Below are positions 12,923 through 33,751 of a stretch of 36,990 nt of DNA, one piece after another. The translations under genes were made by a program, and so were the position numbers. The first letter of the stretch is position 1. Every line of letters begins with the position of its first letter. This DNA is from Bacteroidota bacterium (GTDB lineage: Bacteria > Bacteroidota > Rhodothermia > Rhodothermales > UBA10348): the NCBI GenBank assembly GCA_029262855.1, contig JAJCYP010000109.1, positions 1-36,990 of the forward strand, in the 5' to 3' direction. The notes under the pieces were generated by a model. It saw only the letters and a list, made by a program, of their open reading frames with translations, made no database searches and was not told the DNA's origin.

Positions 12923-12926
12923 TGCC

Positions 12927-17005: not shown

Positions 17006-18013
17006 ATGCCAACCCTGCTCGATGTGGCCCGCGCTGCAGGCGTCTCGACCGCGACCGTATCGCGCGTTCTCAACGAGCCAGCACGGGTCCAGCAGGACAC
17101 TCGAGCCCGAGTGGAAGCCGCCATTGTACGGCTTGAGTACTCCCCCAGTCGCGTAGCGCGCCGACTCCGGGTTCAGGCGGCGACAGAACTGATCGGCCTG
17201 TTGATTCCGGACCTGCAGAATCCTTTCTACTCCGACATCGCGCGCGGCGTGGAAGACGTGGCGTATGAGAACGATCACGCACTGATCGTGTGCAACTCCG
17301 ACGAGGACCCGGAAAAAGAGACTGTCTACCTACAGACCATGAGATCCGAGGATGTGGACGGGGTCATCCTCCCCCCAAGCGGGACGGGCACGGAAGGAAT
17401 CCGCCAACTCCTCGCCGCCGGAATACAGGTAGTCTGCGTAGACCGCAGACCGCCGCCAGGAGTCGATCTCGACATGGTCCTCGCGGCCAACGAGGTCGGG
17501 GCCCGAGCGGCCACTACTCACCTGCTTGACCTCGGACACACGCGGATCGGCGGCATTGTCGGTCGCTCTGCTCTCTCGACAAGTCGTGAGCGCCTGGCCG
17601 GATTCGAGAGTGTCTTCAGGGAGCAAGGACTCCGGTTTGACGAATCCCTGGTACAGTTTGGAGATTCGCGCATCGACTCCGGGCGCGAACTGGCCCTTGA
17701 GCTACTCAAGCTGCCGAATCCGCCGAGTGCCCTCTTTACGATGAACAACATGATGACCCTGGGCGCACTTCAGGCCATCCGCAGCTTGCGTCTGAGAATC
17801 CCTCAGGACGTGGCTCTTATCGGGTTTGACGACCTTCCCTGGGCAACGGCCTTTGAACCACCCATTTCGGTCGTCAGTCAGCCCTCGTATGAAATGGGAA
17901 GGCGGGCGGCGAGTCTGTTGCTGGCCCGGGTCGATGATCCGGCACGGGTCGTCCGGACGGAGACCCTGGAGTGCCAACTGGTGATTCGCGGCTCTACCGG
18001 GCCTGCCGCCTGA
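17006..18013 (+). CDS. LacI family transcriptional regulator
   Basis: The 335-residue product has an N-terminal LacI helix-turn-helix (residues 2-25, LLDVARAAGVSTATVSRVLN) and the minor-groove hinge helix region (SPSRVARRLR, ~47-56). A periplasmic-binding-protein-like sensor domain covers ~60-330 (IGLLIPDLQNPFYSDIARG; DVALIGFDDLPWA). It should bind DNA as a dimer and release it, or bind it, on sensing a sugar. An operator-like palindrome lies ~50 bp upstream, suggesting autoregulation. The start follows TTAAT with no Shine-Dalgarno. The sugar kinase gene starts 2 bp after its stop. The inducer is probably a trehalose/glucose- or sucrose-related sugar given the neighbours, but this is inference. 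Confidence 0.93.
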   Translation: MPTLLDVARAAGVSTATVSRVLNEPARVQQDTRARVEAAIVRLEYSPSRVARRLRVQAATELIGLLIPDLQNPFYSDIARGVEDVAYENDHALIVCNSDEDPEKETVYLQTMRSEDVDGVILPPSGTGTEGIRQLLAAGIQVVCVDRRPPPGVDLDMVLAANEVGARAATTHLLDLGHTRIGGIVGRSALSTSRERLAGFESVFREQGLRFDESLVQFGDSRIDSGRELALELLKLPNPPSALFTMNNMMTLGALQAIRSLRLRIPQDVALIGFDDLPWATAFEPPISVVSQPSYEMGRRAASLLLARVDDPARVVRTETLECQLVIRGSTGPAA

Positions 18014-18015
18014 TC

Positions 18016-18894
18016 GTGCCCTCTTCTCCCCCCATAGTCCTCGGAATTGGTGAACTCCTCCTTGACGTGTTCGAGGACAGTCGCCGTCCGGGCGGCGCGC
18101 CAGGCAATGTCGCCTTCCACGCGGCACAGATTGGAAACCGTGGTGTCGTGGCCAGCCGGATCGGAGACGACGAGGACGGTCGGGTCCTGAAAGCGTATCT
18201 GCAAGACAGGAACGTGGACACGACCTTCCTGCAGATGGATCAGGCGCACGCTACCGGCACGGTCTTCGTTTCCTTTGAAGACGGAGAGCCGTCGTATCGA
18301 GTAAGCGAAGAGGCCGCGTGGGACTTCCTTCAGCCTACCACCGAGCTTCTGAGGCTGGCCGCGTCCACGGACGCGATCTGCTTCGCGACCCTGGGCCAGC
18401 GTCATGAGACGGCAAGAGCCACCACGCAAGCTGTTCTCGCGGCTACCAGGGGTATCAAGGTATTGGACGTGAATTTGCGCCCGCCGTTTGTTTCTGCGGA
18501 GGTGATCCTGGCCTCAATCGACGCGGCGGACGTAGTGAAAATCTCCCACTCCGAGCGAGACACCCTGGCTTCCAAATTTTCCGTGGCGAAGCCCTGTGAT
18601 TGGCTCCTGGGGCGAGGAGTGGCCCTGGTCTGCGTAACTCACGGAGCCAGGGGCGCCGAACTGATTACCGCGAATCACACGGCCGTCCGCGGGGGGATAG
18701 CCATTGACGTATCAAGTGGAGATGCGGTGGGAGTGGGGGATGCCTTCGTGGCGGCAATGACACACCAGTTGGTACGTGGCGCCAGTCTTGAGACGACGCT
18801 GGAGGTGGCAAATCACTACGCTGCCCAGGTTGCCAGTCACCGAGGGGGCATGCCGGTTATCCCCCAATCACAGCTGGCGGCCTGCCTTCGGTAG
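18016..18894 (+). CDS. PfkB family sugar kinase (fructokinase-like)
   Basis: This 292-residue cytoplasmic kinase has the ribokinase/PfkB N-terminal signature PGGAPGNVAFHAAQIG (residues 25-40). The C-terminal signature is DAVGVGDAF (236-244), with catalytic Asp242 in the GVGD anion-hole loop, where the family usually has GAGD. The pattern GELLLDVFED...GGAPGNVA is typical of fructokinases, though some act on other hexoses. The GTG at 18016 was chosen because it is the only good start near the first beta-strand and lies 2 bp after the LacI-type stop, implying one operon. A fructokinase beside a lost GH13 enzyme hints that the locus once handled a fructose-containing disaccharide as well. Kinase family is certain; substrate is not. 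Confidence 0.88.
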   Translation: MPSSPPIVLGIGELLLDVFEDSRRPGGAPGNVAFHAAQIGNRGVVASRIGDDEDGRVLKAYLQDRNVDTTFLQMDQAHATGTVFVSFEDGEPSYRVSEEAAWDFLQPTTELLRLAASTDAICFATLGQRHETARATTQAVLAATRGIKVLDVNLRPPFVSAEVILASIDAADVVKISHSERDTLASKFSVAKPCDWLLGRGVALVCVTHGARGAELITANHTAVRGGIAIDVSSGDAVGVGDAFVAAMTHQLVRGASLETTLEVANHYAAQVASHRGGMPVIPQSQLAACLR

Positions 18895-18955
18895 CGACTC
18901 CGCAACAGACATGCGTCTTTGGCGTGAGAGCGCTCGACCCCATCCAAACACGTCC

Positions 18956-20884
18956 ATGAAACGGCTAATCATTCTTGCCCTCCTTCCCCTTCTGGGCGCG
19001 TGTCGGCCACAGGAGCTGCAGCCCCTCGATGGAAGCATTTCGGTAGATGTATCGGCTAGTCTGGAGACATTGGTCGGACAGGAGGACACCGATGGTGACC
19101 GGCAGATTACCATCAAGGACGCAGGCCCCAGGTCGATGACCCTGACCTCCGCCGACGGAGCGCGTTCGGTCAGCATCGAAGGCACCTACCCACTGTCCAA
19201 TCTGTTGCAGGAGCTTGCGCTGGCCACCGATGGGGATTCGGAGGTCACCACGATCAACCTGGCGCGTCTCTTCGAGCACCCGGTCGCCCGCATCTCACGG
19301 ATGATCAAGGACTACTACTGGGACGGGCTCACTCGGCGAATTGACGCAGAGGGATTGAGTCGGATTGCAGTCGACACCAAGAGTGACGCGGTCCGGCCCC
19401 GGATCTACGTGCCAGCCACGGACCCGACCGCATACTCCTATTTCAGCGGCATCGCCTCGGAGACCCCGGACCTGGACCTGGACGTGGTTCGACTCCCCCG
19501 CGAGATAACGCCGGAATATGTCCGCTCCATAAACGACAGGCCAGGTATTCTCGTGCTCGGCCTTCAGGCGGAAGGTGGCACACTCTCAGGGATACCATTC
19601 GTGGTTCCGGGCGGTCGCTTCAACGAGATGTATGGCTGGGACAGTTATTTTGAGGCGCTGGGACTCCTGCAGGACGGGCGTGTTGATCTGGCCAAGTCCA
19701 TGGTAGACAACTTCGTCTATGAGATCACGCATTACGGCCGGATCCTGAATGCCAACCGCAGCTATTACCTGACGAGGTCGCAGCCCCCTTTCCTTACCGC
19801 CATGGCCACGTCGGTATTCGATGCCATGGAGCCCGGGACGGCACGCGACACCTGGTTCCGGACGGCGATCCTGACTGCCATCCACGAATACGAAGCGGTC
19901 TGGACCGGAAGTGACCGGCTGACGCGAACAGGCCTCAGCCGATACTATGGAGCGGGAATAGGGAAACCTCCAGAAACAGAAAGAGGACACTACGATGCTC
20001 ATCTGGCACCATACGCAGAAGCCGCCGGAGTCGAATTGGAGTCCTTCACGGAGGGCTACCTGAACCGGGAGATCATCTCGGAGGAACTGGATGCGTATTT
20101 CGTTCATGATCGCACTGTACGAGAATCGGGTCACGACACCAGCTACCGGCTGGAGGGTCGGGCTGCGAGCCTGAATACGGTGGATCTGAATTCGCTCCTG
20201 TACCGCTACGAACTGGACATCGCGAACGCCATCGAAACGGTCTTCGAGGGAGAACTTGAGGGCCACACTCCATCCGCGTGGCGCGCGCGGGCGCACAGTC
20301 GACGAGAACTGGTGGACTCCCTCCTCTGGGACGCGGACGCGGGCTGGTATTTCGATTATGACTATGAGACCAACCGGCGAACCGGCTTCCAGAGCGCCAC
20401 CGCCCTCTATCCGCTCTGGGCGGGAATGGCATCCGCGGAGCAGGCCGCACGATTGGTTGCGAACGCACTCCCCGCGTTGGAAACCGTCGGCGGAATCGCG
20501 TCCACCAGTTCCGAATCCACTGGACAGACCGGACCGGACCGGCCCCAGCGCCAGTGGGACTATCCCTATGGGTGGGCGCCGCATCAGATGCTCATCTGGA
20601 AAGGCCTGGCAGACTACGGCTTCTCGGAAGACTCCCAGCGTCTGACGACGAAATGGCTGACCATGATTGCCCGCAACGCGCGTGACTTCAATGGCACCAT
20701 TCCGGAGAAATACGACGTCGTCCTGGCCACTCACGATGTATTCGTGGAGTACGGCAACGTCGGGACCCAGTTTGATTACATCACGCGAGAGGGATTCGGG
20801 TGGATGAATGCTTCGTTCCAGGTGGGTCTGGCATCGCTCGAACCCGACTGGCTGGAAAGGCTCAAGGCCGATACGGACTTCTAG
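18956..20884 (+). CDS. treA: Lipid-anchored GH37 trehalase
   Basis: The 642-residue enzyme splits trehalose into two glucose units. Both PROSITE trehalase signatures are present: PGGRFNEMYGWDSY from residue 218, and QWDYPYGWAP from residue 533. A lipoprotein signal ends in LLGA|C (C16), so it should be tethered in the periplasm or on the surface rather than free. Just after it, DTDGDRQITIKD (44-55) looks like an EF-hand-type calcium loop. It begins 61 bp after the kinase gene and probably belongs to the lacI-pfkB operon. It converges with the plug-lipoprotein gene, whose stop lies 95 bp away; no T-tailed hairpin is seen between them. The glucose it makes could enter by the symporter at 34159. 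Confidence 0.94.
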   Translation: MKRLIILALLPLLGACRPQELQPLDGSISVDVSASLETLVGQEDTDGDRQITIKDAGPRSMTLTSADGARSVSIEGTYPLSNLLQELALATDGDSEVTTINLARLFEHPVARISRMIKDYYWDGLTRRIDAEGLSRIAVDTKSDAVRPRIYVPATDPTAYSYFSGIASETPDLDLDVVRLPREITPEYVRSINDRPGILVLGLQAEGGTLSGIPFVVPGGRFNEMYGWDSYFEALGLLQDGRVDLAKSMVDNFVYEITHYGRILNANRSYYLTRSQPPFLTAMATSVFDAMEPGTARDTWFRTAILTAIHEYEAVWTGSDRLTRTGLSRYYGAGIGKPPETERGHYDAHLAPYAEAAGVELESFTEGYLNREIISEELDAYFVHDRTVRESGHDTSYRLEGRAASLNTVDLNSLLYRYELDIANAIETVFEGELEGHTPSAWRARAHSRRELVDSLLWDADAGWYFDYDYETNRRTGFQSATALYPLWAGMASAEQAARLVANALPALETVGGIASTSSESTGQTGPDRPQRQWDYPYGWAPHQMLIWKGLADYGFSEDSQRLTTKWLTMIARNARDFNGTIPEKYDVVLATHDVFVEYGNVGTQFDYITREGFGWMNASFQVGLASLEPDWLERLKADTDF

Positions 20885-20979: not shown

Positions 20980-21468
20980 CTAAATCTTCGTCTTGATTAC
21001 GATGACTCCGTTGGCCCCGCGCGAGCCGTACTGAGCTGTTGCGAACGCCCCTTTCAGAACGTGGATCGACTCTATGTCGTAGGGGTTCAGAAAGGGAATT
21101 CCGCCGCCAGGCCGGGGCGTCACCGGGACACCGTCGATCATGTAGAGCGGATCCCCGGCAGCCCCCCGGATTCTTATGACCACGCCGTTGGGACCCTCTG
21201 TCACCCTGACTCCAGAGACTCGCCCTTTCAGGATGTCACTGACTCGCGCCGGAGGCTTACCGCTACGAGCCCTCTCCATATCCACCTCTTCTCCACTCGC
21301 GCTGTCGAAGTCTCCCGGCCGCCTATCATCATTATCCACCTCCCCAGCGACCGCATCCGGCGGAGCATCCCCCGTGGGCTGGCTCGCTTGATCGCCCTGC
21401 GACCTTGAGGCGCCCGCACATCCGGCAAGTAATACCAACAGAATTCCGATTGTCAGCTTCTGGTGCAT
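20980..21468 (-). CDS. Plug-domain-only lipoprotein (TonB-receptor plug without a barrel), copy 1
   Basis: This 162-residue protein has a lipoprotein signal with lipobox LLAG|C (C17) and a Gly/Asp-rich linker to ~75. Residues ~75-162 are an isolated SusC-type plug: DILKGRVSGVRV, VVIRIRGAAGDPLYMIDGVP, NPYDIESIHVLKG and YGSRGANGVIVIKTK. The chain stops exactly where a receptor barrel would begin. In ordinary receptors the plug occludes the barrel; here it is anchored alone in a membrane. It starts 6 bp after the stop of the small lipoprotein upstream, so it is the last gene of the minus-strand run. The barrel was not lost recently, since the downstream sequence shows no barrel remnant. Function is unknown; a decoy or adaptor for SusC barrels is conceivable. 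Confidence 0.85.
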   Translation of the reverse strand: MHQKLTIGILLVLLAGCAGASRSQGDQASQPTGDAPPDAVAGEVDNDDRRPGDFDSASGEEVDMERARSGKPPARVSDILKGRVSGVRVTEGPNGVVIRIRGAAGDPLYMIDGVPVTPRPGGGIPFLNPYDIESIHVLKGAFATAQYGSRGANGVIVIKTKI

Positions 21469-21474
21469 GGCATG

Positions 21475-21873
21475 TCACTCTCTTCTGAGTTCGAGATCGG
21501 CGATCCCGGAAAAACCAGGACCAGTCATGGTCGCCCTGATTACCATCCTGTCTTCGCTGACGTTTCCAGCCAAAGTGCCCGGCGGGGGATTGTCGAATAT
21601 CAGAGACAGACTCAACAACGGGTGTAGGTAACTCCCGGGGTCTGAAACGCTAAACCCGCGCGCATCACCTCTCACGGTTACACTCCCGCTACCTGTCACG
21701 AACGTAGCCGCCTCGGTCAATTCAATCGAAACGGGCATGGCAACCCCTGACGATGTCACCTCTCCCACCCACGTTCCGGAAATGGATGTCTGCATCACTT
21801 CCACGGCAGAACCGGACGAATCACACGCCGCCAGCAGCGGGAGGCCAAGAATCAGCAGGACAACACGTCGCAT
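21475..21873 (-). CDS. Small beta-rich lipoprotein of unknown function
   Basis: I do not recognise a named family. The 132-residue product has a clear lipoprotein signal (PLLAAC, C17). The mature part is beta-rich and lipocalin-like in pattern: ISGTWVGEVTSSG near the start, alternating hydrophobic strands, and a C-terminal strand IADLELRRE. No catalytic motif is visible. The ATG at 21873 was chosen because it starts the signal peptide; the open frame upstream overlaps the end of the giant propeller gene. It lies 35 bp after that gene's stop and 6 bp before the plug-only lipoprotein, so the three are probably cotranscribed and may form one outer-membrane assembly. Confidence 0.78.
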   Translation of the reverse strand: MRRVVLLILGLPLLAACDSSGSAVEVMQTSISGTWVGEVTSSGVAMPVSIELTEAATFVTGSGSVTVRGDARGFSVSDPGSYLHPLLSLSLIFDNPPPGTLAGNVSEDRMVIRATMTGPGFSGIADLELRRE

Positions 21874-21908
21874 GGATATCGTACGTCGCTTTTCGGAATT
21901 GGTCCCGA

Positions 21909-24900
21909 CTAGTGTTCGTACCGGTATAGCAGGACAGGCGCATCGTTGACCGCCGCCAGGAATGTCGAACCCGGCCCGTCCATGGCCCTGAGGGCCTGCA
22001 CCTGCCCCCCAAGGTAGAGACCTTCGGGCAGGCGAGCGGACAGACTCTCCGAGCCAACCTCCAGCAGGATGCCCCATCCAGCGTCCAAACGGCCTCTCCG
22101 AGGCGAGACTCCGGTAAAATTTCCAGCCAAGAGAAGCACCAGGCCTCCATTTTCCAGCCGATCCACCTCCAGAACGGATGAGATCGGGAAGAGCTGGGCT
22201 TCCGCAGGTAATGGCTCCACCGCGAATCGGCCAGCCCCGTCATTCCGAAGCAATAATGAACGATGCTCCATGACAGGGATCGATCGAGACGGTGTATCTC
22301 CGAGTACGGCATCCACAGTCGATATGGAGTAATCCGCGTTGGACGAAAACGTGGTCACCAGGGCTGGCATCTGTCGAAGTAGCGCTTCCCGACCACCAAA
22401 CGGAATGCGTACTCCTCCAAACAGGAAGGAGACGAATGGATCCGGACTTCCATTCCGGTCGAAATCACCTATGTGCAGCATCACTGGATCATCTTCCGAT
22501 CCAACCAGGGTTCCATTCAGACCGAGATTGCCTGCAATCAGATCCTGGTCGCCGTCCTCATCCGCATCGATGGTGGCCACGCCTTGCCATAACCCGGTTA
22601 ACCCGGACAGGCCCGCCTCCTGCGTCTGCTCCACAAACCTCCCGGACGACTGAGCGAATAGCCTCGGCGGCATCCAGTCGCCGACTACGACAAGATCCAG
22701 GTTGCCGTCTCCGGTGAGGTCCGCCCAACTGGCGTCGGTCAGCATACCGGCCGAGACGAGGTCGGGCGCGATGCGATCCGTCACATCCTGATAATTTCCC
22801 GATCCGTCATTTTCCAGCAATCTACTGCGTGGCGAGACCGCATATTGCCTGGACACGACGCGCGCGCCCACGAACAGGTCAATGTCCCCATCCCGGTCAT
22901 AGTCCGATGGCCGCACACAACAACTGTTCTGGAAGCCCTCTGGAAGCGCCTGGAGATCGCGCACAAAACCACCCGATCCATCATTCCGGTACAGTCGATC
23001 CAGAAGGGTTCGGTTTTGCCCCCAGAACTCATTCCCCCCGCTGGCCACGTAGAGGTCCAGATCGCCATCCCGATCCGCATCGAAGAAAGCAGCGTCCACG
23101 TCTTCAAACAGGCTGTCAGCCCTCCAAATATCAGCGCCCGTTGGCCTCCAGGATCCATCGGGATTCTGCAGGAAGAGACCGGCGGCTTGCCACTTTGCGC
23201 CGCCGACGAACGCATCATCCAGGCCATCCCCATTCACGTCACCAACAGCCAGAGCCGGACCTTCTGCGGAGAGCAGGTGAGGAATCAGAGGCTCCCGACT
23301 GAAATCACTGAATTCATTCTCCTCATGGATGAAAGGCGGAGCGATACCGGCGGTGAATGATCGCCGGGCTCGTTGGCCCTTTATCATGGAATCCCCAGGG
23401 TCAGGAGGTGCACGGGAGTCTTTTTGCACCACCAACACCGTATCCACGGGCAGCCCGAGCAGGGTCTGGGTGGTACGATCCGGCCACTTCACCTGAACGG
23501 AATCTACTCGGGTCAAATGGCCCACGCCGAAGAAGAGTCGCGGATCTACGGAGGATGCCCACCCCCGGCTTGCGTACTGTTCCAGGACGGTGGATCCATC
23601 ACCGAAGAACGCGGTCACTCGCGCGCCAACACCCTGCGAGTTCTTGCCGGGTGACTCAAGCGCGAGGCCCAAGCCGTGGCTGACAGATTTGCCGACGGTG
23701 TTCTGATAAACCAGCACCTCCGCGTCCACACTGTTGACCACCAGATCCAGGTCACCGTCGTTGTCCAGATCTGCGTACGCCGCCCCGGTGGACGCCCCAA
23801 GTGCAGCCAGCCCCCATTCCACTGATTGATCCGAGAATCGGATCGCGCCCTCATTTCTATATGCGACGTTGGCTGCCAGCGCGGACGGCAGGCGATCCAG
23901 TGCCTGGCGAAGGGTCTCCGGACCGCCAACGAGCAATTGCTGCCCTTCCGGAGTCGAAATCCATCGTAGGTAATCTCGATCATTCGGCCGCCGAAGGATC
24001 CCGTTGGTCATGAACAGGTCTGTTCGTCCATCCAGATCGTAATCGGCGGCCAAAACGGCCCATGTCCAATCTGTTGCCTCAATCCCGGCATAGCGGGCGA
24101 CTTCGCTGAAATGCCGGCCCTGGCGATTCAACTGCAGGGTGTTCCTTCCATCCTGGTGATGAAAGCCAACTCCCACCTTTGCGCGATAGATTTCGTGGTC
24201 CTCGAAGCTGACGGCGGCTCGCATCCCTTGAGCGTCGGGCGGGAGCATATCGGCCACAACGATATCCGTCCAGCCGTCACCGTTCAGGTCTGCGATGTCG
24301 TTTCCCATGGAGGAGCGACTGGTATGGCCCATGGCCGAGACCACGGACTCGGTGAACGTACCATCGCAATTGTTGTAGTAGAGGTAGTCGTTTTCGTGGA
24401 AATCATTCGAGACATACAGGTCCGCGCAGCCGTCCCGATCCAGATCCGATGTCCCCACCGCCAGGCCGTAGCCCAGGAAACTGGAACGAATTCCCGCTTG
24501 TTCTGTGACGTCCAGGAAGCGGCCGTCCTCGTTTCGCAAGAGTCTGTCTCCGGCTTCCTCGCTACGCTCTGACCTGAATACGGCTCCTCCAACGACACCC
24601 GTCTTGTGGGTTGAGTGGTTGACCAGATAGACGTCCAGGTCGCCGTCCAGATCATAGTCGAAGAACGTGGCATGCGTGGCCAATCCCGAGAAAGCAAGGC
24701 CGTAGTCCTCGGCAACCTCATCGAAAACTGCCTCTCCCCGATTGATAAAAAGCTCATTCCGCCCGCGCAGTCCTTCGTGGTTGACGTTGGTGACGTAGAT
24801 GTCGCTTAGGCCGTCCCCATTCACATCGGCGACAGCAACTCCCTTGGTCCAGTCTCCGGTGCCGGAAACGCCGGCTTTGTCGGTGACATCCTTGAATCGG

Positions 24901-25181
24901 AAATCACCCTGGTTTTCGAACAGTCTGTTGGACCCCTGATTGGCCGTCAGGAATATGTCCATCAGACCGTCTCCATTGAAGTCACCGATTCCGACTCCTC
25001 CGCCATCATAGAAATAGAGATACTCCAGGATATTGACGCCGGGCGCTTCGGTCAGGTCATTCCTGAAATCGATGCCGGATTCTGAGGCGGGCACCGAGCG
25101 AAAGAGGGTGGGCGTGGATGGGCCACCACAGGCAAGACCCAGCAGGGGCAGCAGGACAACCGATAAACGAGGCACACTCAT
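21909..25181 (-). CDS. Giant FG-GAP/VCBS propeller lipoprotein with ASPIC/UnbV domain, copy 1
   Basis: The 1090-residue protein has a lipoprotein signal (lipobox LGLAC, C18) and at least 13 calcium-binding repeats of the DxDxDGxxD type (for example DFNGDGLMD, DLDNDGDLD, DADRDGDLD). These form two beta-propellers, ~55-495 and ~615-1090. An ASPIC/UnbV domain (PF07593) sits between them at ~516-587 (GVGARVTAFFGDGS, RLFFGVGHLTRVDSVQVKWP). Such proteins resemble the CRTAC1 and UnbV families and are frequent near SusC/D genes in marine Bacteroidota. They are probably surface-exposed and calcium-dependent, with no proven activity. It starts 22 bp after the stop of a paralogue with the same layout. 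Confidence 0.9.
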   Translation of the reverse strand: MSVPRLSVVLLPLLGLACGGPSTPTLFRSVPASESGIDFRNDLTEAPGVNILEYLYFYDGGGVGIGDFNGDGLMDIFLTANQGSNRLFENQGDFRFKDVTDKAGVSGTGDWTKGVAVADVNGDGLSDIYVTNVNHEGLRGRNELFINRGEAVFDEVAEDYGLAFSGLATHATFFDYDLDGDLDVYLVNHSTHKTGVVGGAVFRSERSEEAGDRLLRNEDGRFLDVTEQAGIRSSFLGYGLAVGTSDLDRDGCADLYVSNDFHENDYLYYNNCDGTFTESVVSAMGHTSRSSMGNDIADLNGDGWTDIVVADMLPPDAQGMRAAVSFEDHEIYRAKVGVGFHHQDGRNTLQLNRQGRHFSEVARYAGIEATDWTWAVLAADYDLDGRTDLFMTNGILRRPNDRDYLRWISTPEGQQLLVGGPETLRQALDRLPSALAANVAYRNEGAIRFSDQSVEWGLAALGASTGAAYADLDNDGDLDLVVNSVDAEVLVYQNTVGKSVSHGLGLALESPGKNSQGVGARVTAFFGDGSTVLEQYASRGWASSVDPRLFFGVGHLTRVDSVQVKWPDRTTQTLLGLPVDTVLVVQKDSRAPPDPGDSMIKGQRARRSFTAGIAPPFIHEENEFSDFSREPLIPHLLSAEGPALAVGDVNGDGLDDAFVGGAKWQAAGLFLQNPDGSWRPTGADIWRADSLFEDVDAAFFDADRDGDLDLYVASGGNEFWGQNRTLLDRLYRNDGSGGFVRDLQALPEGFQNSCCVRPSDYDRDGDIDLFVGARVVSRQYAVSPRSRLLENDGSGNYQDVTDRIAPDLVSAGMLTDASWADLTGDGNLDLVVVGDWMPPRLFAQSSGRFVEQTQEAGLSGLTGLWQGVATIDADEDGDQDLIAGNLGLNGTLVGSEDDPVMLHIGDFDRNGSPDPFVSFLFGGVRIPFGGREALLRQMPALVTTFSSNADYSISTVDAVLGDTPSRSIPVMEHRSLLLRNDGAGRFAVEPLPAEAQLFPISSVLEVDRLENGGLVLLLAGNFTGVSPRRGRLDAGWGILLEVGSESLSARLPEGLYLGGQVQALRAMDGPGSTFLAAVNDAPVLLYRYEH

Positions 25182-25203
25182 GGGTAGCCTTACCGCGCCG
25201 GGA

Positions 25204-28200
25204 TCAGTCCGTTTCGTCAGTCGATTGAATCTCCCTGCTATCGGTCAGCCTCCATACAGAGACGGGGCCGTCGCTTCGCGCCACGACGAGGTATCGCACC
25301 CCTCCGGCCCCGGCAACAACCTGGAGGTCGCGCACTTCCCCCTTCAATGTCAGTTCGGTCTCGAACGGCTCCAGCCCCGACGATCCTGAATGCATGACGA
25401 GTCCTTGACCCGCATCCAGCGGGCCTATTCGTGGCTGCATGGCCAGGTAATTTCCTGCGGCTATCACCTCGACCTCGCCATCCAGATCCATATCTCCTGA
25501 GACGAAGGCGAATGTCGCGGTCCGCTGCGCCTCATCGGGCAGTCGATGTCTGGTGAACCCGGATGCCGTTCTTTCCATCCAGACCGACGCCAATTCGTGT
25601 ATCACCAAGCGCTCTGCCCGAGCCAATTCTTCCGCCGTCAGCAGTTGATCCACCGTCAGGCTTGCATAGGCGGCGTAGGTTGGAATTCGCGAGACGAAAG
25701 ACGGCAGAGCCCCCAGCACATCGGGGCGGAGGGGCACCAGTCTGCCTCCACTCACCAGCAGCTGATCCATCCACCCATCCCGGTCAAAATCCGAAACGAA
25801 CATCTCCATCGGGCTCTCCAGCGAGGCCCTGAATTCAGTATTCAGGCCCAGATTGCCCATGAGCAGATCCGTGTCACCATCGCCATCGACGTCTGCTGCT
25901 TCGAGCCTAAGCCACCACCCGCTGACCTCAGTAAGCCCTGCTACCTCCGTTTGCTCCAGGGAGCCTCCCACGCTTGGCGAAAAGACCGACGGAGCAGCCC
26001 AGGGACCGACGGTGACGAGGTCTTCGCGTCCATCCCCTGTCACATCCAGCCAGGCCGCATCACTGACCATTCCGATCGACTGGATAGCCGGCGCAACACT
26101 CAACGTTTCGTCCGAGAAGCGCCCCGAGCCATCATTGACAAGGAAAGCGTGCTTCGGCGGGATCCCAAACTGCCACGGAATCATCCGACTGCCAACAAAG
26201 AGATCCGTATCGCCGTCTCCGTCAATATCATGGGGAGCGACAACCGATGAGCTGACATGGTTGGGCGGCAGGTTACCCGGCGCGAGAGTGAAAACGCCTT
26301 TCCCATCGTTCAGATAGAGCCTGTCCGCGAGCGCCGGGGCCATCCTTGAAAACTCGTTACCGCCGGAGGCAACGTAGAGATCCAGGTCGCCATCCCCATC
26401 TGCATCGAAGAATGCCGCATCGACATCCTCTGAGATCGCCTCACCTGGAAACGAGGCCAGAAGCTCGAAGCCCGGCCCCGCCTGGCGATACACGCTGCCT
26501 GGAGCGTTCTTCGCCCCACCGATAAACACATCCTTCAGGCCGTCAGCATCCACATCACCGATGGCCATCCGCGGCCCCTCACGCGAGATCATTTTCGGTA
26601 TCAGCGACTGCCGGTCGAAGTCGTTGTACTCGTTCTCCACATGCACATAGCCCAGTCCGGCGCTGCCGGTGACGTCCACGAACATCTGTGACCCGGAGAG
26701 GGCGGCCCTCCGTGGCGCAGCATCCTGGCTCAAGGCATCCGCTTGCGAAAGCGTGTGCCTGACATTGACAGCCGGGCTCAAGAGTCTCTGAACCCGGCCA
26801 TGGGGCCACCATACACGAACGGAGTCAATAGAGAGTTGCTCGCCCAGCCCGAATGTCAGAACAGGGGAAACGGAAGAAAGAAAACCGCGCGTCGGGATCT
26901 GTTCCAGATATCGGTGGACCGAGCCGGCCCAGACATCAATCTGAGCCCCCACGCCGGCAGTATTCGGCGCCGCACCGACCAGCTCGAACTGAATCCAGCT
27001 GCGCTCGGGAAACAACGAATCCGTCTCGTTCCGGAATATGCCGACCGGCTGGTTGACGTTGTTGACCACAAGATCCAGGTCCCCGTCGTTATCCAGGTCG
27101 CCGTATGCCGAGCCGTTTGAAAAGCTCGGTGCCGCGAGGCCCCATTCGGCGGCCACGTCAGAGAACTGCATACCCCCCGCATCGACAAACATCACATTCG
27201 GAAGGGGGGTCGAAGGTATGCTGCCCATGACCTCCGAGAAGTCGGGTGCCGCCGAACCGCGAAACTCTGACATCCGGTCTTCGCTCCCAAAAAGGGTCAG
27301 GAAATCCTGATCTGTCAGATCCCGATATATCCCGTTCGTGACGAAGATGTCCTTCAATCCGTTGAGGTCGAAATCCGCGATCAGGGCGCTCCAACTCCAG
27401 TCCGTACGCGAAACGCCGGCCATCGGACTCACCTCCGCAAACGTGCCGTTACCCCGGTTGAGTTGAAGCGTATTCCGCATGATTTGCGCATGGAAATCGT
27501 TCCGCAGCCCGTACTGGAAAGCTGGCCAGCTATCGAAGGTGGACATCGTCTTCAATCGGCGATCGTCCGATGGTAGCATATCCGTCACGTACAGATCCGG
27601 CCAGCCATCGTTGTTCAGGTCGGCCATGTCTGCCCCCATCGACGACTGACTTATATGTGCCATGGCCGATTGGATTTCCTCCGAAAAGGTCCCATCTCCC
27701 TCGTTCCGGTAGAGGTAATCCTGTTCGAAAAAGTCGTTGGACACATAGATATCCAGCCAGCCATCCCGATCCACGTCGCCGACTGTGGTGCCAAGCCCGA
27801 ATGCGATCTCGCTGCCATTGATGCCGGCGTCTGAGCTGACATCCTCGTAGAGTCCGTTGTTGTTTCGATAGAGGCGGTCTCCCCCATCCGGATGCCGAGT
27901 GGCGCGTATCTGACGTTCCTGAAAGTCGGATATGGCCCGGGATGAGTTGTTCATCACATACAGGTCCAGATCCCCGTCACGATCATAATCGAAGAAAGCC
28001 GCATGCGTCCCGAAGCCGGCGTCCGCAATGCCCCACACGGCCGCCTGCTCCTCGAACCGCAGGGCATCTGATTCATCCAGGCCAAGGTTGATGAACAACT
28101 CGTTTTCGCGCGTATCCCCCCGGATGTTTCCCGAGTTCGACACGTAGATATCCGGACGACCGTCACCGTTCACGTCCGCGATGGTGACCCCCGTGCTCCA

Positions 28201-28551
28201 GCCGTGCGAGCCGGCCACTCTGGCGGCGTCCGTTACATCCTCGAATGCCCAGTTTCCGCGATTCAGGTAGAGCTCATTGTCCCTCTGATTGGCCGTCAGG
28301 AATATGTCGAGGAGCCCGTCCCCATTGAAATCGGCCAGACCTGTTCCTCCGCCGTCGAAGAAGTTCCTATAGGTAAAGACATTCAACCGCCGGGAATCCT
28401 CCAGCCGGTTTTCAAAACCGATACCCGTGAACGAGGCAGCCAGGGACGTGAACAACAAGGAAATCGCTGGCGCTTCCGATCGATCCGGTGTTCCGGTCGA
28501 GCAACCCACAAGAGTCAGGCAGACCACAGAGATCCCAACCGACTTCCGCAC
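25204..28551 (-). CDS. Giant FG-GAP/VCBS propeller lipoprotein with ASPIC/UnbV domain, copy 2
   Basis: This 1115-residue paralogue of the gene downstream has a lipoprotein signal (TLVGC, C17) and about 14 DxDxDGxxD-type calcium loops (DFNGDGLLD, DVNGDGRPD, DADGDGDLD, DVDGDGDTD). The ASPIC/UnbV domain at ~530-600 contains GVGAQIDVWAGS and LTFGLGEQLSIDSVRVWWP. Similarity to copy 1 runs end to end (for example shared DIFLTANQ and FFDADxDGDLDLYVASGGNEF), so the pair arose by duplication and diverged. It starts with GTG at 28551, sharing one base with the TAG stop of the plug-only lipoprotein (TAGTG), which indicates tight coupling of those two. A role in glycan or protein binding at the outer membrane is an inference. 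Confidence 0.9.
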   Translation of the reverse strand: MRKSVGISVVCLTLVGCSTGTPDRSEAPAISLLFTSLAASFTGIGFENRLEDSRRLNVFTYRNFFDGGGTGLADFNGDGLLDIFLTANQRDNELYLNRGNWAFEDVTDAARVAGSHGWSTGVTIADVNGDGRPDIYVSNSGNIRGDTRENELFINLGLDESDALRFEEQAAVWGIADAGFGTHAAFFDYDRDGDLDLYVMNNSSRAISDFQERQIRATRHPDGGDRLYRNNNGLYEDVSSDAGINGSEIAFGLGTTVGDVDRDGWLDIYVSNDFFEQDYLYRNEGDGTFSEEIQSAMAHISQSSMGADMADLNNDGWPDLYVTDMLPSDDRRLKTMSTFDSWPAFQYGLRNDFHAQIMRNTLQLNRGNGTFAEVSPMAGVSRTDWSWSALIADFDLNGLKDIFVTNGIYRDLTDQDFLTLFGSEDRMSEFRGSAAPDFSEVMGSIPSTPLPNVMFVDAGGMQFSDVAAEWGLAAPSFSNGSAYGDLDNDGDLDLVVNNVNQPVGIFRNETDSLFPERSWIQFELVGAAPNTAGVGAQIDVWAGSVHRYLEQIPTRGFLSSVSPVLTFGLGEQLSIDSVRVWWPHGRVQRLLSPAVNVRHTLSQADALSQDAAPRRAALSGSQMFVDVTGSAGLGYVHVENEYNDFDRQSLIPKMISREGPRMAIGDVDADGLKDVFIGGAKNAPGSVYRQAGPGFELLASFPGEAISEDVDAAFFDADGDGDLDLYVASGGNEFSRMAPALADRLYLNDGKGVFTLAPGNLPPNHVSSSVVAPHDIDGDGDTDLFVGSRMIPWQFGIPPKHAFLVNDGSGRFSDETLSVAPAIQSIGMVSDAAWLDVTGDGREDLVTVGPWAAPSVFSPSVGGSLEQTEVAGLTEVSGWWLRLEAADVDGDGDTDLLMGNLGLNTEFRASLESPMEMFVSDFDRDGWMDQLLVSGGRLVPLRPDVLGALPSFVSRIPTYAAYASLTVDQLLTAEELARAERLVIHELASVWMERTASGFTRHRLPDEAQRTATFAFVSGDMDLDGEVEVIAAGNYLAMQPRIGPLDAGQGLVMHSGSSGLEPFETELTLKGEVRDLQVVAGAGGVRYLVVARSDGPVSVWRLTDSREIQSTDETD

Positions 28552-28979
28552 TAGCGTTTCCCGGCGCCCGTTTTGGTCTTGACCAGAATCACGCCGTTCG
28601 AGCCCCGCATCCCATAGGGAGAAGTGTCTGCGAGCTCTTTCAACACACTTATGGACTCAATTTCGGTAATTGACACACCTGGAAGTGTCCCGTCGGCGTT
28701 GGGACTGACGGGAATGCCATCCACAACGAAAAGCAATTGATCCTCACCGGTGAGCGAGGCGACGCCACGCGCCCGGACCATAAGATACCCTTCTGCAGTC
28801 TGGCTGACCCTGATCCCGGGTACCCGGGAGATGACGAGGTCCTGTACGCGTACCGTTTGCAAGCGCTCGATCTGATCCCCGGATACCCCTGGTTCTGCAT
28901 CGCCTGTCTGGACAGAGCCAGCTCCGGCGCATCCCAGGGCCGAAGCCAGCACACCGGCCAGAATCGTTCGCCTCATCAT
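28551..28979 (-). CDS. Plug-domain-only lipoprotein, copy 2
   Basis: The 142-residue product has a lipoprotein-like signal (LASALGC, C17, with an imperfect lipobox). An isolated SusC-type plug covers ~38-135: QDLVISRVPGIRVSQ, YLMVRARGVASL, LLFVVDGIPVSP, ITEIESISVLKEL, YGMRGSNGVILVKTK. It ends GAGKR, with no barrel. It is related to the plug-only lipoprotein at 20980 but clearly diverged. The GTG at 29060 would put the leader inside the susD terminator, so ATG 28979 (or 28976) was chosen. Its stop overlaps the start of the giant propeller gene by one base, which suggests that plug and propeller are made in equal amounts and work together. The exact role is unknown. Confidence 0.83.
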   Translation of the reverse strand: MMRRTILAGVLASALGCAGAGSVQTGDAEPGVSGDQIERLQTVRVQDLVISRVPGIRVSQTAEGYLMVRARGVASLTGEDQLLFVVDGIPVSPNADGTLPGVSITEIESISVLKELADTSPYGMRGSNGVILVKTKTGAGKR

Positions 28980-29016: not shown

Positions 29017-29053
29017 GAAAAAAGCCCAACCGGCACACGTCCGGTTGGGCTTT
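29017..29053 (-). terminator. Terminator downstream of susD
   Basis: A perfect 13-bp stem (29021-29033 with 29041-29053) encloses a 7-nt loop. Read on the minus strand, T residues follow down to 29017. It separates the susCD transcript from the plug/propeller genes, or attenuates read-through into them. Confidence 0.9.
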
Positions 29054-29093
29054 CTCCCACTCACAGGACAGTGTCCTGTTTCATCATTCGGAC

Positions 29094-30689
29094 TTAGTAG
29101 CCCGCGTTCTGCGTGAGATTGGGGTTGGAATCGATCTGGACCTGAGGAATCGGACCCAAAACGAGGTGACCACCCCCGGCGGGCTTAAACTCCCAGGCGT
29201 CGGTGAATTTACCAGCCCGGATAAGGTCCTGACGACGTGTGGCCTCCCAGAAGAGTTCAAATTGACGCTCACTCCAAATGGCTTCGCGGGCATCGGCCTG
29301 TGAAGTGGCAGCCACCGGCTCATCCGGGTCGAAGACGCGCGCACGCAACTGGTTCACGATGGCCATGGCACCAGCGGTCTGTCCCATCTCGTTCATGGCC
29401 TCCGCCTTGATCAGATACATCTCGGCGAGGCGGAAAAATGCGTAGTCGTTTCCGTTATCACCGCCGACACGGCCAGAATCGATCTCCCACTTCATCACGC
29501 GTGCCCCGGAGGTCTCGTTCAGGTTGACCGCGACGTCCGTAACTGGATTTCCGCTTGGATCAAAGTAATCCAGCGTGAAGGAGAGGGGATTACCAACCCG
29601 GTCTTCCAGGGCAGCGCCAGTGGTGAAGCATTCGTTTCCGAGGCAACCCTGATTAGGCTCCGCGAACTGCTGTCCAACCAGGAATATGTTCCGGCGCTGA
29701 TCATCTTCGTCGAATCGATTGTACGTCTCGGCGAGCGTCGAGAAGCCGTTCCACGGCGTCTGCGGAATCTGGTTGTAATGCAGGCCGCGCATGATGAAGG
29801 TGAGTCCAAGGCCTCCCTTTCCCAAATGCCCGACTGAGAAAATGATCTCTGGCGAGGTGTGATTGCCCGCGCGGAAGTTGTCCCTTTGATCACCGGTTAG
29901 CTGATACTGCCCCGAATTGAGGACACGATCGGCCGCCGTGATGGCATCGGCCCATCTTGCGGTTCCCCTGGCCAATCCGGATCCCGAAACAGTACCGGTG
30001 AAGACCTCTGCATTCAGATAGATCTTGGCAAGCAACGCATCTGCTGCACCCTGCGTGGCACGGCCCTGGTTAGCACCATCCCAAGAGGTGGGCAGGTCGG
30101 TACGCGCTTCGTTCAACTCGCTTTCAATGAAGCTGAATACGGCCGCCCTGGATTCACGAGACGGTGGATTGTCCTGGTCCACCACAGCGTCGGTGACCAC
30201 CGGAACGCCTCCGAAGAGGTCCATCAGTTGATAGTAGTAGAAGGCGCGCAGGAAGCGCAACTCGGCTGCGATAGACGGATCGGAACCGTCAGGCAGGTTC
30301 GCAAGGACCACGTTCGCCCGCGCAACCCCCGTGTAGGCATCCGTCCACGCCGAATTGAAATCGCCGTTGGCCGCCGTCCATGTATGGACGTGCAGTTCGC
30401 GCCATGCTCCGCCATCATCCCAGTCCGTGCCGCGTACAGGAACAAGTGCCTCGTCAGATGACACCTGGCTGATGTTGTGATAGGCCCACATCATCGAGCG
30501 CAGTTGCGCATAGACCGGGGCGAGGGCTGCGATGATTTCTTCGTCGGTCTGAAAGAACTGATCCGGCGTGATCACGCCGAAGGTCTCTTCATCCAGATCG
30601 GTACAGCCCTGAAGCACCGTAGTGACAGGGACGAGCAAAATCGCCGCCACCAGCCAAAGGCTCCAGGATTTAGATAGTATTCTGGTCAT
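29094..30689 (-). CDS. SusD/RagB family outer-membrane lipoprotein
   Basis: The 531-residue protein is the surface glycan- or nutrient-binding partner of SusC. It has a lipoprotein signal with lipobox VLQG|C (C29) followed by TDLDEE, the usual acidic export tag region. Typical SusD elements follow: an N-terminal TPR-like part with AELRFLRAFYYYQLMDLFGGVPVV split over that stretch and SRESRAAVFSFIESEL, and a C-terminal segment with YLIKAEAMNEMGQ and FWEATRRQDLIRAGKF. The start at 30689 has an AGGAAA site 8 nt upstream. It follows the susC stop by 50 bp and is followed by a strong terminator. The bound nutrient cannot be read from sequence; the shared operator suggests a trehalose-type or other alpha-glucoside substrate. 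Confidence 0.95.
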   Translation of the reverse strand: MTRILSKSWSLWLVAAILLVPVTTVLQGCTDLDEETFGVITPDQFFQTDEEIIAALAPVYAQLRSMMWAYHNISQVSSDEALVPVRGTDWDDGGAWRELHVHTWTAANGDFNSAWTDAYTGVARANVVLANLPDGSDPSIAAELRFLRAFYYYQLMDLFGGVPVVTDAVVDQDNPPSRESRAAVFSFIESELNEARTDLPTSWDGANQGRATQGAADALLAKIYLNAEVFTGTVSGSGLARGTARWADAITAADRVLNSGQYQLTGDQRDNFRAGNHTSPEIIFSVGHLGKGGLGLTFIMRGLHYNQIPQTPWNGFSTLAETYNRFDEDDQRRNIFLVGQQFAEPNQGCLGNECFTTGAALEDRVGNPLSFTLDYFDPSGNPVTDVAVNLNETSGARVMKWEIDSGRVGGDNGNDYAFFRLAEMYLIKAEAMNEMGQTAGAMAIVNQLRARVFDPDEPVAATSQADAREAIWSERQFELFWEATRRQDLIRAGKFTDAWEFKPAGGGHLVLGPIPQVQIDSNPNLTQNAGY

Positions 30690-30739: not shown

Positions 30740-33700
30740 CTAGAAGCCGAGGCTGACTCCAACCGTAAATGTACGCGCTCTCGGGTAATTGGTATAGTCA
30801 ACTCCCAGTGACGCAATCGGGACGCTCCCGGCGGAGGTCCCCGCATTGGTATTGGCTTCGGGATCGAACCCATTGTAATCGGTCAGCACAAACAGGTTAT
30901 TGGCTGCCAGATAGATGCGTGCCCTACGCACCGTCCCAATCCAGTCACTCGCGCCCGTAAGGTTGCGGAATGTGTAGCCAACTGTCAGATTCTCCAGTCG
31001 CAGGAACGACCCGTCCTGAATCCAGCGCGACGAATAGACCGGAGCCTCCGCCAGGGGCGTAGGATCCTCCAGAGCTTCCCGGAGGAAGTTCACGTTTGTG
31101 TTCGCGAGGTTCTTCGACGTGTATTCCAGGCCGGTATTGTTGAATATGTCGCGGCCCTGCTCGCCGCGGAGGAAGAAGCTGAAGTCCACCTGCTTCCAAG
31201 TCACGTTCCCGGTGAACCCGTAGGTGAAGTCAGGCTGGGCATTGCCAATGATGCTGAGCACGCGATTTCCTTGTGCGTCCTCTTCAAACATCTGCGAGCC
31301 CGTCGCCGGGTCGAAGCCCAGGAACGTCGGACCGAAGAACGTCCCAAAAGGCTCACCTGGCGTGATCAGCTGGGAATTGATTCCCGACAGTCCAGCACCC
31401 GAGACGCGACCCGTGAAGATCTGCTCGCGACCGCCCAGGTTGATGACCTCGTTGGAGTTGGCATTGAACGTGGTCCCCAACTCAGCGGTCAGGTCTTCCT
31501 TGTCATAGACGAAGGCGTTGATCGAAAACTCGATCCCCGTGTTCTCCATCTCGCCCGCATTGGCCAGCCGTGTCGGCACGGCCGCCGGCTGCGGCACTTC
31601 AAACTCCAGAAGCAGATCATCGGTTGTCTTCTTGTAGAACTCGATTGAGCCCGATACGCGGCTGTTCCAGAGTTCGTAATCCAGGCCGACGTTTATCTGC
31701 GAGGTCTCCTCCCACTTCAGGTCCGGATTCGCGAGGTTGGTCGGGGCCACACCTGATACCTCTGCATTGCCAATGACGGCGTTGCCCGAAGCACCGAAAA
31801 TGGGCAGCGATCGGAGGTTTCCGATCTCCTGGCTTCCCGTTATTCCGTATCCAACGCGAAGCTTGAGATCGTCCACAAAGTCGACGTCCTCCATGAAACT
31901 CTCGGAGGAGAGACGCCAGCCCAGGGTAACGGCGGGGAATGTACCCCACTTGTTGTCATTACCGAATCGCGAGGAGCCGTCCCTACGAAGGGATGCCGAG
32001 AAGATGTACCGGCTGTTGTAGGAATAGTTGAGTCGTCCAAAGAAGGAAACCAGCCGGCTCTTGGTCCGGAAGGATCTGATGTCGAACGTGGAGGACTGAC
32101 CAGCAGCCAGACTGTTGAAAGAGAACACGTCCGATACAAATCCCTGGGAAAGAGCGCCGAATCCTTCGTTCACGAATTCCTGGAACGAGTAGCCTCCGAG
32201 CAACTGCACATCGTGTCCGCCGTCATAAACCTTCGCGTAGTTACCGGTGAGTTCGAACACCTTGGACGAGAGTTCATTTTCGCCTCGTTGTGCCTCGCCG
32301 CCGACGGCGGCCTTCAACGGGTTCGCAGCCGGGATGAAATACGACCGACTCGACTGAGACCGGTCCAATCCAATATTGGCCGAAACCGTGAAGTCATCGA
32401 ACAGGCTGTAGTCAGCACGCATGCTCGACAGCACCCTCGTCGTCTTCGTGTTGTCCTGCACCTGACTGGCCATGGCAACCGGGTTGCGCACCGAAGTCTG
32501 TCCAAGCACCTCGAAGAATGAGCCATCTGCGTTTACAACCGGCAGGGTCGGATTGAACTTCATGACGTTCGTTAGAAGACCGCCCTCGAAGCCGCCCGTC
32601 TGGTTGAAAGCAGCCCGGTTATCGTTGAAGTAGGATCCCGTGATCCGCATGTCAAGGCGAAGCTTGCCATCGAACGCGGTATGATTGACGTTCGTGCGAC
32701 CCGATACCCTCTCCATACCCGAGTTGTTGATGACGCCCTGGTTGTTGAGGTAACTCACCGAAGCCCGGTACTGCGTGTCATCGGTGCCGCCGCCCATCGC
32801 GAGGTTATGCTGCTGCGAGATGGCTGTTTGCGTAACCGCCTCCTGCCAGTCCGTATCCGCGTTACCGAGGTTAACAGTGGGCAGACCCTGGGATTGTACA
32901 AAGCTCCGATACTCGCTGGCGCTAAGCAGATCCAGGCTGCCCGCGAAGTCGGAGGTAGACACGTATCCGTCATAGTCCACGATAGTCTGACCGGAGCGAC
33001 CCTTCTTGGTCGTTATCAGGATCACGCCATTGGCTCCGCGAGAACCGTAGATAGCCGAAGCCGAAGCATCCTTCAGCACGTCGATGGACTCGATATCGTT
33101 CGGGTTCAGGAAGACAAGCGGGTTCTTGGCGCCCGAATCGGGAGTATTGCCTCCCCCCGAGATCAGGCTGGAGGCGCTGGACGAGTTATCGATCGGAACG
33201 CCATCGATAACGTAGAGCGGTTCATTCGATGCAGAGATGGACGTACCGCCTCTGATTCGAACGGTGACCGGCGCGCCGGGCTCACCGCCGTTCTGGATGA
33301 TGCTGACGCCGGCAACCCGTCCCTGGAGCAACTGCTCTGGAGAACTGATCAAACCAACGTTGGCCTCGGAAGCATCGACGGAGCCAACGGAGCCCGTGAT
33401 ATCCGCGCGCTTCTGAGTCCCGTAGCCCACTACGACCACTTCGTCCAGCAGCACTTCATCGACCAACAGCGACACATTCATCGTACTCCCGCCGCCGACT
33501 GTGCGCTGCTCGGAAATAAATCCTATGAATGAGAATACGAGCACGTCGCCTGTTGCGGCTCGGATCGTGTATGAACCGTCTACGGCGGACGCCGTGCCGG
33601 TTGTTGTGCCCTGAATGGAAATGTTGACGCCGGGCAGGGCAAAGCCGGTCTTGGCATCGGTGACCGTTCCGGTGATGTCGCGCGCTTGCCCAAAAGCGAG

Positions 33701-33751
33701 CCCGACAATCATTGGCAGACAGACACTGAACAGCAGTAGTCTCTTGACCAT
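30740..33751 (-). CDS. SusC/RagA family TonB-linked outer-membrane transporter
   Basis: This 1003-residue protein has a signal peptide (to ~22, GLAFGQ) and a carboxypeptidase-like domain (~25-100, DITGTVTDAKTGFALPGVN). The SusC linker VVVVGYGTQKRADITGSV (near 106-123) is followed by the plug (~125-250, with the hallmark YGSRGANGVILITTKKG) and a long beta-barrel ending in RTFTVGVSLGF. Together with SusD it imports oligomeric nutrients in a lid-and-bucket fashion powered by TonB-ExbBD; exbBD-like genes occur at the right end of this window. It is divergent from the symporter gene and its upstream region contains the 16-bp operator core, 233 bp before the start. The isolated plugs elsewhere in the locus resemble its plug. 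Confidence 0.96.
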   Translation of the reverse strand: MVKRLLLFSVCLPMIVGLAFGQARDITGTVTDAKTGFALPGVNISIQGTTTGTASAVDGSYTIRAATGDVLVFSFIGFISEQRTVGGGSTMNVSLLVDEVLLDEVVVVGYGTQKRADITGSVGSVDASEANVGLISSPEQLLQGRVAGVSIIQNGGEPGAPVTVRIRGGTSISASNEPLYVIDGVPIDNSSSASSLISGGGNTPDSGAKNPLVFLNPNDIESIDVLKDASASAIYGSRGANGVILITTKKGRSGQTIVDYDGYVSTSDFAGSLDLLSASEYRSFVQSQGLPTVNLGNADTDWQEAVTQTAISQQHNLAMGGGTDDTQYRASVSYLNNQGVINNSGMERVSGRTNVNHTAFDGKLRLDMRITGSYFNDNRAAFNQTGGFEGGLLTNVMKFNPTLPVVNADGSFFEVLGQTSVRNPVAMASQVQDNTKTTRVLSSMRADYSLFDDFTVSANIGLDRSQSSRSYFIPAANPLKAAVGGEAQRGENELSSKVFELTGNYAKVYDGGHDVQLLGGYSFQEFVNEGFGALSQGFVSDVFSFNSLAAGQSSTFDIRSFRTKSRLVSFFGRLNYSYNSRYIFSASLRRDGSSRFGNDNKWGTFPAVTLGWRLSSESFMEDVDFVDDLKLRVGYGITGSQEIGNLRSLPIFGASGNAVIGNAEVSGVAPTNLANPDLKWEETSQINVGLDYELWNSRVSGSIEFYKKTTDDLLLEFEVPQPAAVPTRLANAGEMENTGIEFSINAFVYDKEDLTAELGTTFNANSNEVINLGGREQIFTGRVSGAGLSGINSQLITPGEPFGTFFGPTFLGFDPATGSQMFEEDAQGNRVLSIIGNAQPDFTYGFTGNVTWKQVDFSFFLRGEQGRDIFNNTGLEYTSKNLANTNVNFLREALEDPTPLAEAPVYSSRWIQDGSFLRLENLTVGYTFRNLTGASDWIGTVRRARIYLAANNLFVLTDYNGFDPEANTNAGTSAGSVPIASLGVDYTNYPRARTFTVGVSLGF

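Follow-up and report, generated by a model that had tools for sequence, protein, structure and literature searches.

The window, that is the whole stretch of DNA analysed, is a complete contig of 36,990 bases (JAJCYP010000109.1; G000:C109 among the working labels used here for genomes, contigs and loci) from a Bacteroidota bacterium of the class Rhodothermia, and it carries two genes for lipoproteins made of a SusC-type plug domain that end where the barrel of the transporter would begin. These free plug lipoproteins put a known domain into a new arrangement; purifying selection and the occurrence of intact frames in three phyla indicate that they are functional and not products of decay. Their role is possibly that of tethered spare stoppers for SusC barrels whose own plug was pulled out.

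Both open reading frames lie on the minus strand, at the coordinates given in the original prediction, each with a lipobox and a plug of SusC type. Plug 1 (P0001, 20980..21468, 162 amino acids) has the lipobox LLAGC, a disordered linker of 55 residues before the domain, and a stop one residue past the domain; plug 2 (P0002, 28551..28979, 142 amino acids from the ATG at 28979) has the lipobox ALGC, a short linker of 24 residues and a stop five residues past the domain. The Pfam Plug profile (PF07715) scores 55.9 bits in P0001 and 45.5 bits in P0002, with a gathering cut-off of 23.9, and is covered from position 21 to 107 and from 12 to 107, respectively, of its 107 positions. Both proteins exceed the cut-off of the SusC signature TIGR04057 (62.4 and 48.4 bits vs 46.2), but fall short of the full-length TIGR04056 (92.2 and 78.3 bits vs a cut-off of 368 bits). 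The barrel profile PF00593 has no match in either of them. The plugs had also been called complete, a word that holds for their intact C-terminal end and is otherwise slightly too strong, because the first plug segment and the TonB box are missing from both copies, a motif search finding no TonB box in P0001 or P0002. An AlphaFold2 model of P0001 (mean predicted local distance difference test score, pLDDT, of 74.6) has a poorly predicted linker and then a confidently predicted plug, the blocks from residue 71 on having values of 81-93; its best match in the PDB is the dextran-utilisome SusC 8aa4 (E 1.2e-7), and at the sequence level the PDB matches of the plug are SusC and RagA chains.

Plug proteins in short frames turn up repeatedly, first among 60 relatives and next throughout the class, and about 60 relatives with the same anatomy are found in Rhodothermia, in Gemmatimonadota and in one Zixibacteria record. 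Among 66 free plugs, a regular expression finds the lipobox in 64, both window copies included; the median linker is 32 residues, and the residues that follow the plug have a median of 3 and a maximum of 39. The ratio of nonsynonymous to synonymous substitution rates (dN/dS) is 0.05-0.34 in 13 of the 14 estimable pairs and 0.65 in the remaining one (L045 vs L049); a fifteenth pair is saturated, and several others have a high dS. In two complete genomes of classical Bacteroidota outside the class, none of the 142 plug matches lies in a frame under 361 amino acids, although this control is not fully sensitive, because a like search of the window genome listed P0001 and missed P0002. Of the 30 genomes of the class that carry a short free plug, 29 have an ASPIC1 homologue (E <= 1e-150; ASPIC1 is a large propeller lipoprotein encoded next to plug 2) vs 98 of the 238 genomes searched, the listings being compared by reading and kinship being uncorrected. 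L064, a Gemmatimonas record, belongs to the genome G334; in the phylum of that genome, matches at E <= 1e-21 occur in 54 of 200 genomes, and of the 86 matches listed, 54 are frames of at most 310 amino acids. Nine frames of 303-1281 amino acids were inspected as possible fusions between a free plug and some other domain, and the idea was rejected: eight are ordinary plug lipoproteins behind an open frame, and the ninth (L259) is SusC-like with residues past the plug. Among the matches listed from the open full-text literature, mostly without subscription journals, no description of stand-alone plug lipoproteins or of ASPIC-SusCD loci was found, and the one paper listed for three of ASPIC, UnbV, SusC and SusD was unrelated.

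The free plugs stand more often than not beside loci in which SusC and SusD are combined with one or more FG-GAP propeller/ASPIC lipoproteins (ASPIC1 and ASPIC2), and several stand elsewhere. Among the 36 Rhodothermia plugs obtained with the plug query, a count that omits the two of the window and seven found via ASPIC and in which several plugs without such a neighbour sit on short contigs, ASPIC lies within 10 kb in 19 cases, and ASPIC or SusC in 21. The plug is placed between SusD and ASPIC1 in the window, L031, L043, L045, L047, L049 and L142, after the ASPIC genes in the window, L031, L035, L036, L037, L038 and L135, and before SusC in L033, L034, L042, L048, L132, L138 and L141. In Gemmatimonadota, it lies within 150 bp of ASPIC in 14 of the 20 loci fetched (13 of 19 without L246, a repeat of L056), one of these 14 plugs (L237) running to the contig end; L243 has it by SusCD only, five loci have neither close by, and the same is true of a 21st locus, L230. 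These loci were hand-picked, mostly from the higher short-frame rows, and the count favours the ASPIC-linked type because the query was itself an ASPIC-linked plug. There, as a rule, the plug gene separates ASPIC1 from ASPIC2 and is read from the opposite strand, and the Zixibacteria record L059 has the same layout. The survey of short plug-only lipoproteins and of their neighbours thus returned a family with a recurrent neighbourhood in both groups, not random truncations, in line with the original prediction, which had argued for function over decay.

Viewed from the ASPIC side, in the best 79 loci, a free plug lipoprotein is present in none of 65 Bacteroidota-labelled loci (52 of them at least 15 kb), in 4 of 9 from Gemmatimonadota, in the one from Zixibacteria and in the Rhodothermota record L053. 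A 66th Bacteroidota-labelled locus, L063, carries a free plug identical to that of L037, and it therefore belongs to the window's own family.

The plug trees rest on 96-97 columns. In the best tree, built from 41 free-plug and 78 SusC-plug domains, one side of a branch is made up of the free plugs, with a support of 91 in the Shimodaira-Hasegawa-like approximate likelihood ratio test (SH-aLRT); the split is retained when Gemmatimonadota are added (62 free vs 89 SusC rows), with a support of 57, and the first tree, with its cut and long-branch rows, needs four changes of the free/SusC label. A separation of the free plugs from the sampled SusC plugs is neither shown nor rejected by these alignments, and the free plugs may derive from another SusC group, as most SusC rows come from ASPIC loci. 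The window copies fall in two lineages: plug 2 clusters with the copies of L031, L045 and L049, all placed between SusD and ASPIC1 (support 99 and 98), and plug 1 with the copy that closes the L031 operon (support 99).

As to the samples, L106_22026 and L144_4083 (truncated where a locus or contig ends, and mislabelled by length), L240_2830 (a spurious frame) and L053 and L063 (copies of L038 and L037) were dropped before the counts; the short "plug" of L204 is spurious and uncounted, while L056 and L246, apparently one contig, both stand in the residue counts and in the mirror-tree test given below. From the ASPIC-side tally L067, which has no lipobox and is extended N-terminally, and L113, a fragment of SusC, were left out, and the plug of L066 was entered by hand. 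The best trees leave out L145, L048, L067, L136 and the SusC rows L110_1762 and L068_18255; the first tree kept rows later left out, plus two cut rows.

According to the consulted part of one study (PMC5080379), acidic residues after the lipid-bearing cysteine mark surface lipoproteins in the Bacteroidota examined. The signal was taken as two or more acidic residues at positions +2 to +7 after that cysteine, in lipobox-positive proteins only. It is found in 1 of 64 free plugs; in SusD it is found in 13 of 13 proteins from Rhodothermia, 10 of 17 from Gemmatimonadota and 38 of 42 others, in ASPIC1 in 4 of 18, 2 of 19 and 33 of 94, and in ASPIC2 in 4 of 11, 1 of 18 and 19 of 44, respectively. Because the signal is missing in 63 of the 64, the free plug would likelier face the periplasm than the surface, and the new surface complex that the original prediction had entertained finds no support in the comparison with SusD.

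Most free plugs keep the signature residues of the SusC plug: the arginine of xRG is retained in 61 of 66 vs 90 of 91 SusC proteins, the tyrosine of YG, the "lock", in 62 of 66 vs 93 of 93, and the arginine of YGxRG in 62 of 66 vs 91 of 93. By alignments and a 25-residue offset worked out by hand, the lock tyrosine aligns with Y191 of BT1763, which stacks, as described in an excerpt of PMC7618045, with a phenylalanine of the barrel wall and with Y89, which adjoins the TonB box. A TonB-box-like VxVGYG stretch is present in 11 of 45 free plugs and in 11 of 64 of a larger set, L036 being an example.

The reading preferred here, to which a probability of about 0.4 is assigned, is that the free plug acts as a tethered spare stopper, a reading in the vein of the gating of, or competition for, SusC barrels that the original prediction had raised. 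TonB would pull SusC's own plug out, or a barrel would stand empty; the tethered free plug would then enter the vacant SusC barrel from the periplasm, in trans, and cap it, and the capping would limit leak and set the number of open channels. The free plug itself would escape pulling, as most copies are without a TonB box. Detergent cryo-electron microscopy, in the portion of PMC7782687 consulted, found SusC plugs absent from lid-closed SusCD, with the suggestion that TonB takes the plug out in its entirety. Extracts of two other papers state that the translocon of the type IX secretion system (T9SS) is sealed by a separate Plug protein (PMC10994853) and that loss of this protein together with PorV permeabilises the membrane (PMC12611786). 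That separate membrane-tethered plugs enter SusC barrels in trans in all three phyla, as a natural split TonB-dependent transporter in which interchangeable stoppers, besides the plug that each barrel has of its own, would govern pore closure, is a wider and more doubtful proposal.

Several observations weigh against the capping of vacant barrels. In the consulted section of PMC7618045 all barrels of the intact levan utilisome are plugged, and a review, again known from part of its text (PMC11658791), reads the FepA plug as staying in the barrel and reports that the isolated FepA plug behaved as unfolded. In a mirror-tree test with 31 plug rows, the divergence of the free plug follows that of the barrel of SusC (partial r 0.25 with ASPIC1 given, p 0.010), with no tie to SusD or to the built-in plug after barrel correction, and it tracks ASPIC1 as well (partial r 0.26 given the barrel, p 0.008); the barrel link fades when both ASPIC1 and SusD are given (partial r 0.13, p 0.086), whereas the ASPIC1 link stays given the barrel and SusD (partial r 0.26, p 0.008), so that the test would fit several models, does not single out the barrel and leans, if anything, to ASPIC. 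No SusC is present in the stretch fetched for L032, L039-L041, L046, L050, L133, L139 and L145, nor in that for L230, L233, L235, L239, L247 and L250. No plug is adjacent in 17 of 20 ASPIC loci of the class, which were fetched mainly where a plug had hitherto been unseen and some of which are on short contigs; seven genomes with plug-less loci (G043, G029, G053, G239, G234, G240, G238) carry a free plug elsewhere, and one of the three loci with a plug (G237) was already known. From this patchy presence, and from the 65 Bacteroidota-labelled loci without it, it follows that the free plug is a lineage-specific accessory and not a core part of the operon. The conserved motifs would argue weakly for docking, and cannot prove it, because a half-plug of an M56 peptidase (L185) keeps the YG...GVI..TK motif without a barrel; the use of such peptidase plugs as a barrel-free control was given up, there being too few of them (56 loci, taken with 1.5-kb flanks, contained a single half-plug). 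Moreover, the ASPIC lipoproteins, presumed to be surface-exposed, are also poor in the acidic signal, so that the location suggested by it is not settled, and the signal rule, which comes from the studied Bacteroidota, may not hold for Rhodothermia.

Among the alternatives, a rather unlikely one is that the free plug is a periplasmic ligand binder or sensor, whose upper loops would hold released sugar and hand it to a transporter or a regulator. The upper loops of the plug can contact substrate inside SusC; sugar genes surround the loci (trehalase, LacI and PfkB, and GH13 with CBM20), and copies outside SusCD-ASPIC loci adjoin a GH2 gene (L044, with SusC 7 kb off) or a xylose-isomerase-like gene (L133, L139). 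From IDG to DIES, the loop of the free plugs varies in sequence, but so does that of SusC. For the binding of ferric enterobactin by the FepA plug on its own, the same portion of PMC11658791 gives 5 uM, although this is about 100-fold weaker than with intact FepA and the plug was unfolded.

It is unlikely that the plug is a docking adaptor, as the original prediction proposed, by which propeller lipoproteins and SusC would be joined at the surface or the complex would be helped to assemble. The plug often directly adjoins ASPIC genes in Rhodothermia and Gemmatimonadota, and its divergence tracks ASPIC1 in the mirror-tree test whether the barrel or the barrel with SusD is given; the lack of the acidic signal in all but one of the free plugs and the 65 Bacteroidota-labelled loci without a free plug speak against this reading. 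An aid or decoy, by which the plug would hold nascent SusC barrels or compete for TonB, appears improbable: the TonB-box-like stretch of some copies would suit it, but most copies, both of the window included, are without one, and the window SusC has its own plug. That the free plugs are truncated SusC remnants or assembly errors, as a single short domain and a few very diverged copies (L048, L203) might suggest, is highly improbable and was rejected in view of the anatomy shared by about 60 loci from three phyla, the purifying selection, their place apart from SusC plugs in the best trees and the lack of any short plug in the two control genomes.

The operon of the window runs on the minus strand in the order SusC, SusD, plug 2, ASPIC1, ASPIC2, a small lipoprotein and plug 1. 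SusC (30740..33751, 1003 amino acids) has its own CarbopepD_reg domain, TonB box (DEVVVVG by alignment), plug and barrel, and the SusD lipoprotein (29094..30689) has an acidic, export-type signal (CTDLDEE). A plug-less barrel partner in the same genome was looked for and rejected, as 28 barrel matches were matched by eye to frames shared with a plug match, with the sole exception of C39:28, which begins at a contig edge. ASPIC1 (25204..28551, 1115 amino acids) has a confidently predicted fold (pLDDT 83.5), whose best structural match is CRTAC1; ASPIC2 (21909..25181, 1090 amino acids) is the second FG-GAP propeller/ASPIC lipoprotein. The stop of plug 2 ends in the TAG at 28551 and shares one base with the ASPIC1 start (TAGTG): the one-base overlap noted originally is real, but it is an overlap and not a fusion. 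The small lipoprotein (21475..21873), of unknown family and unmentioned originally, lies between ASPIC2 and the last plug and corresponds to the C-terminal part of P0003, its start being picked by eye at the signal peptide; relatives of it are present in L031, L036 and L045.

In the gap between SusD and plug 2, a hairpin followed by a T run resembles an intrinsic terminator (minus strand, 29019..29055, approximate limits; -34.1 kcal/mol, z -6.4). At the same spot, hairpins before a T run are strong in L049 and L047 and weak in L142, and no T run is found in L043 or L045. A scan for consensus promoters and terminators gave matches no more numerous than in shuffles, and this hairpin is not among them. 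The output of SusCD may exceed that of the genes downstream.

A LacI-family regulator (17006..18013), a PfkB sugar kinase (17971..18894) and a trehalase with a lipoprotein-like N-terminus (18776..20884), all on the plus strand, converge on the operon, and for this reason the locus probably handles alpha-glucosides, trehalose or others, the trehalase being a hint to the substrate. Divergent from SusC, a plus-strand gene (34159..35760) presumably encodes a sodium:solute symporter-type transporter, judging from the translation only. Further away, a plus-strand frame of 809 amino acids (12861-15290) has CarboxypepD_reg and Plug domains and no Pfam barrel match at E 0.001.

Other loci show further features. 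The order SusC-SusD-ASPIC1(-ASPIC1)-ASPIC2 recurs in the loci L053-L131, in records of Bacteroidota, Gemmatimonadota, Zixibacteria and Neomarinimicrobiota, and these loci encode CRTAC1-like proteins of about 1100 amino acids. Genes of the PAP2 superfamily follow ASPIC genes in L036 (2063-3439) and L037 (13346-14707), by Pfam, and ASPIC1 in L058 and L064, by sequence resemblance; they are taken here to be vanadium-haloperoxidase-like. A frame of 758-842 amino acids with weak similarity to SusC lies on the opposite strand between the plug and ASPIC1 in L047 (9161-11437) and L202 (7379-9907). Tandem free plugs, with no SusC in the stretch, lie by a xylose-isomerase-like TIM-barrel gene in L133 (9189-10350), where a Gfo/Idh/MocA gene is also a neighbour, and in L139 (9664-10711). 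One genus has, upstream of SusC, a plug that is strongly diverged though intact (L048:8460-8972, L203:14940-15380), and no plug was found in the sister-genome stretches L204 and L205; a loss of the plug in progress is possible in this genus.

The free plugs share with SusC/RagA (TIGR04056; BT1763, 8aa4) the plug domain, the TIGR04057 signature and the tyrosine of the aromatic lock; unlike them, they lack the barrel, CarbopepD_reg and mostly the TonB box, and have a lipid anchor added. The T9SS Plug on SprA is also a separate protein that stoppers a large outer-membrane channel of Bacteroidota, as the excerpts cited above have it, but the channel is a different one, and the likeness concerns only the way of working. 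FhuA has been artificially split, with cork and barrel made separately and their incorporation studied (Braun 2003, as cited in a passage of PMC2615193): that was an experiment, whereas the present case is a natural gene arrangement. The half-plug fused to the M56 peptidase is likewise plug sequence outside a transporter; however, it is the C-terminal half only and lies inside the peptidase.

It is still debated how TonB-dependent transporters can pass bulky sugars and yet keep the outer membrane sealed, and opinions differ on whether the plug comes out of the barrel in one piece, as the consulted portions of PMC7782687, PMC7618045 and PMC11658791 illustrate. A family that keeps the plug and drops the barrel, often beside barrels that have their own plug, offers a direct genetic handle on this question. 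The free plug also adds an accessory, unmentioned in the parts of the utilisome literature consulted, to a type of importer operon found repeatedly in Bacteroidota, Gemmatimonadota and their neighbours, and it hints at a corking of outer-membrane pores by proteins distinct from the pore itself.

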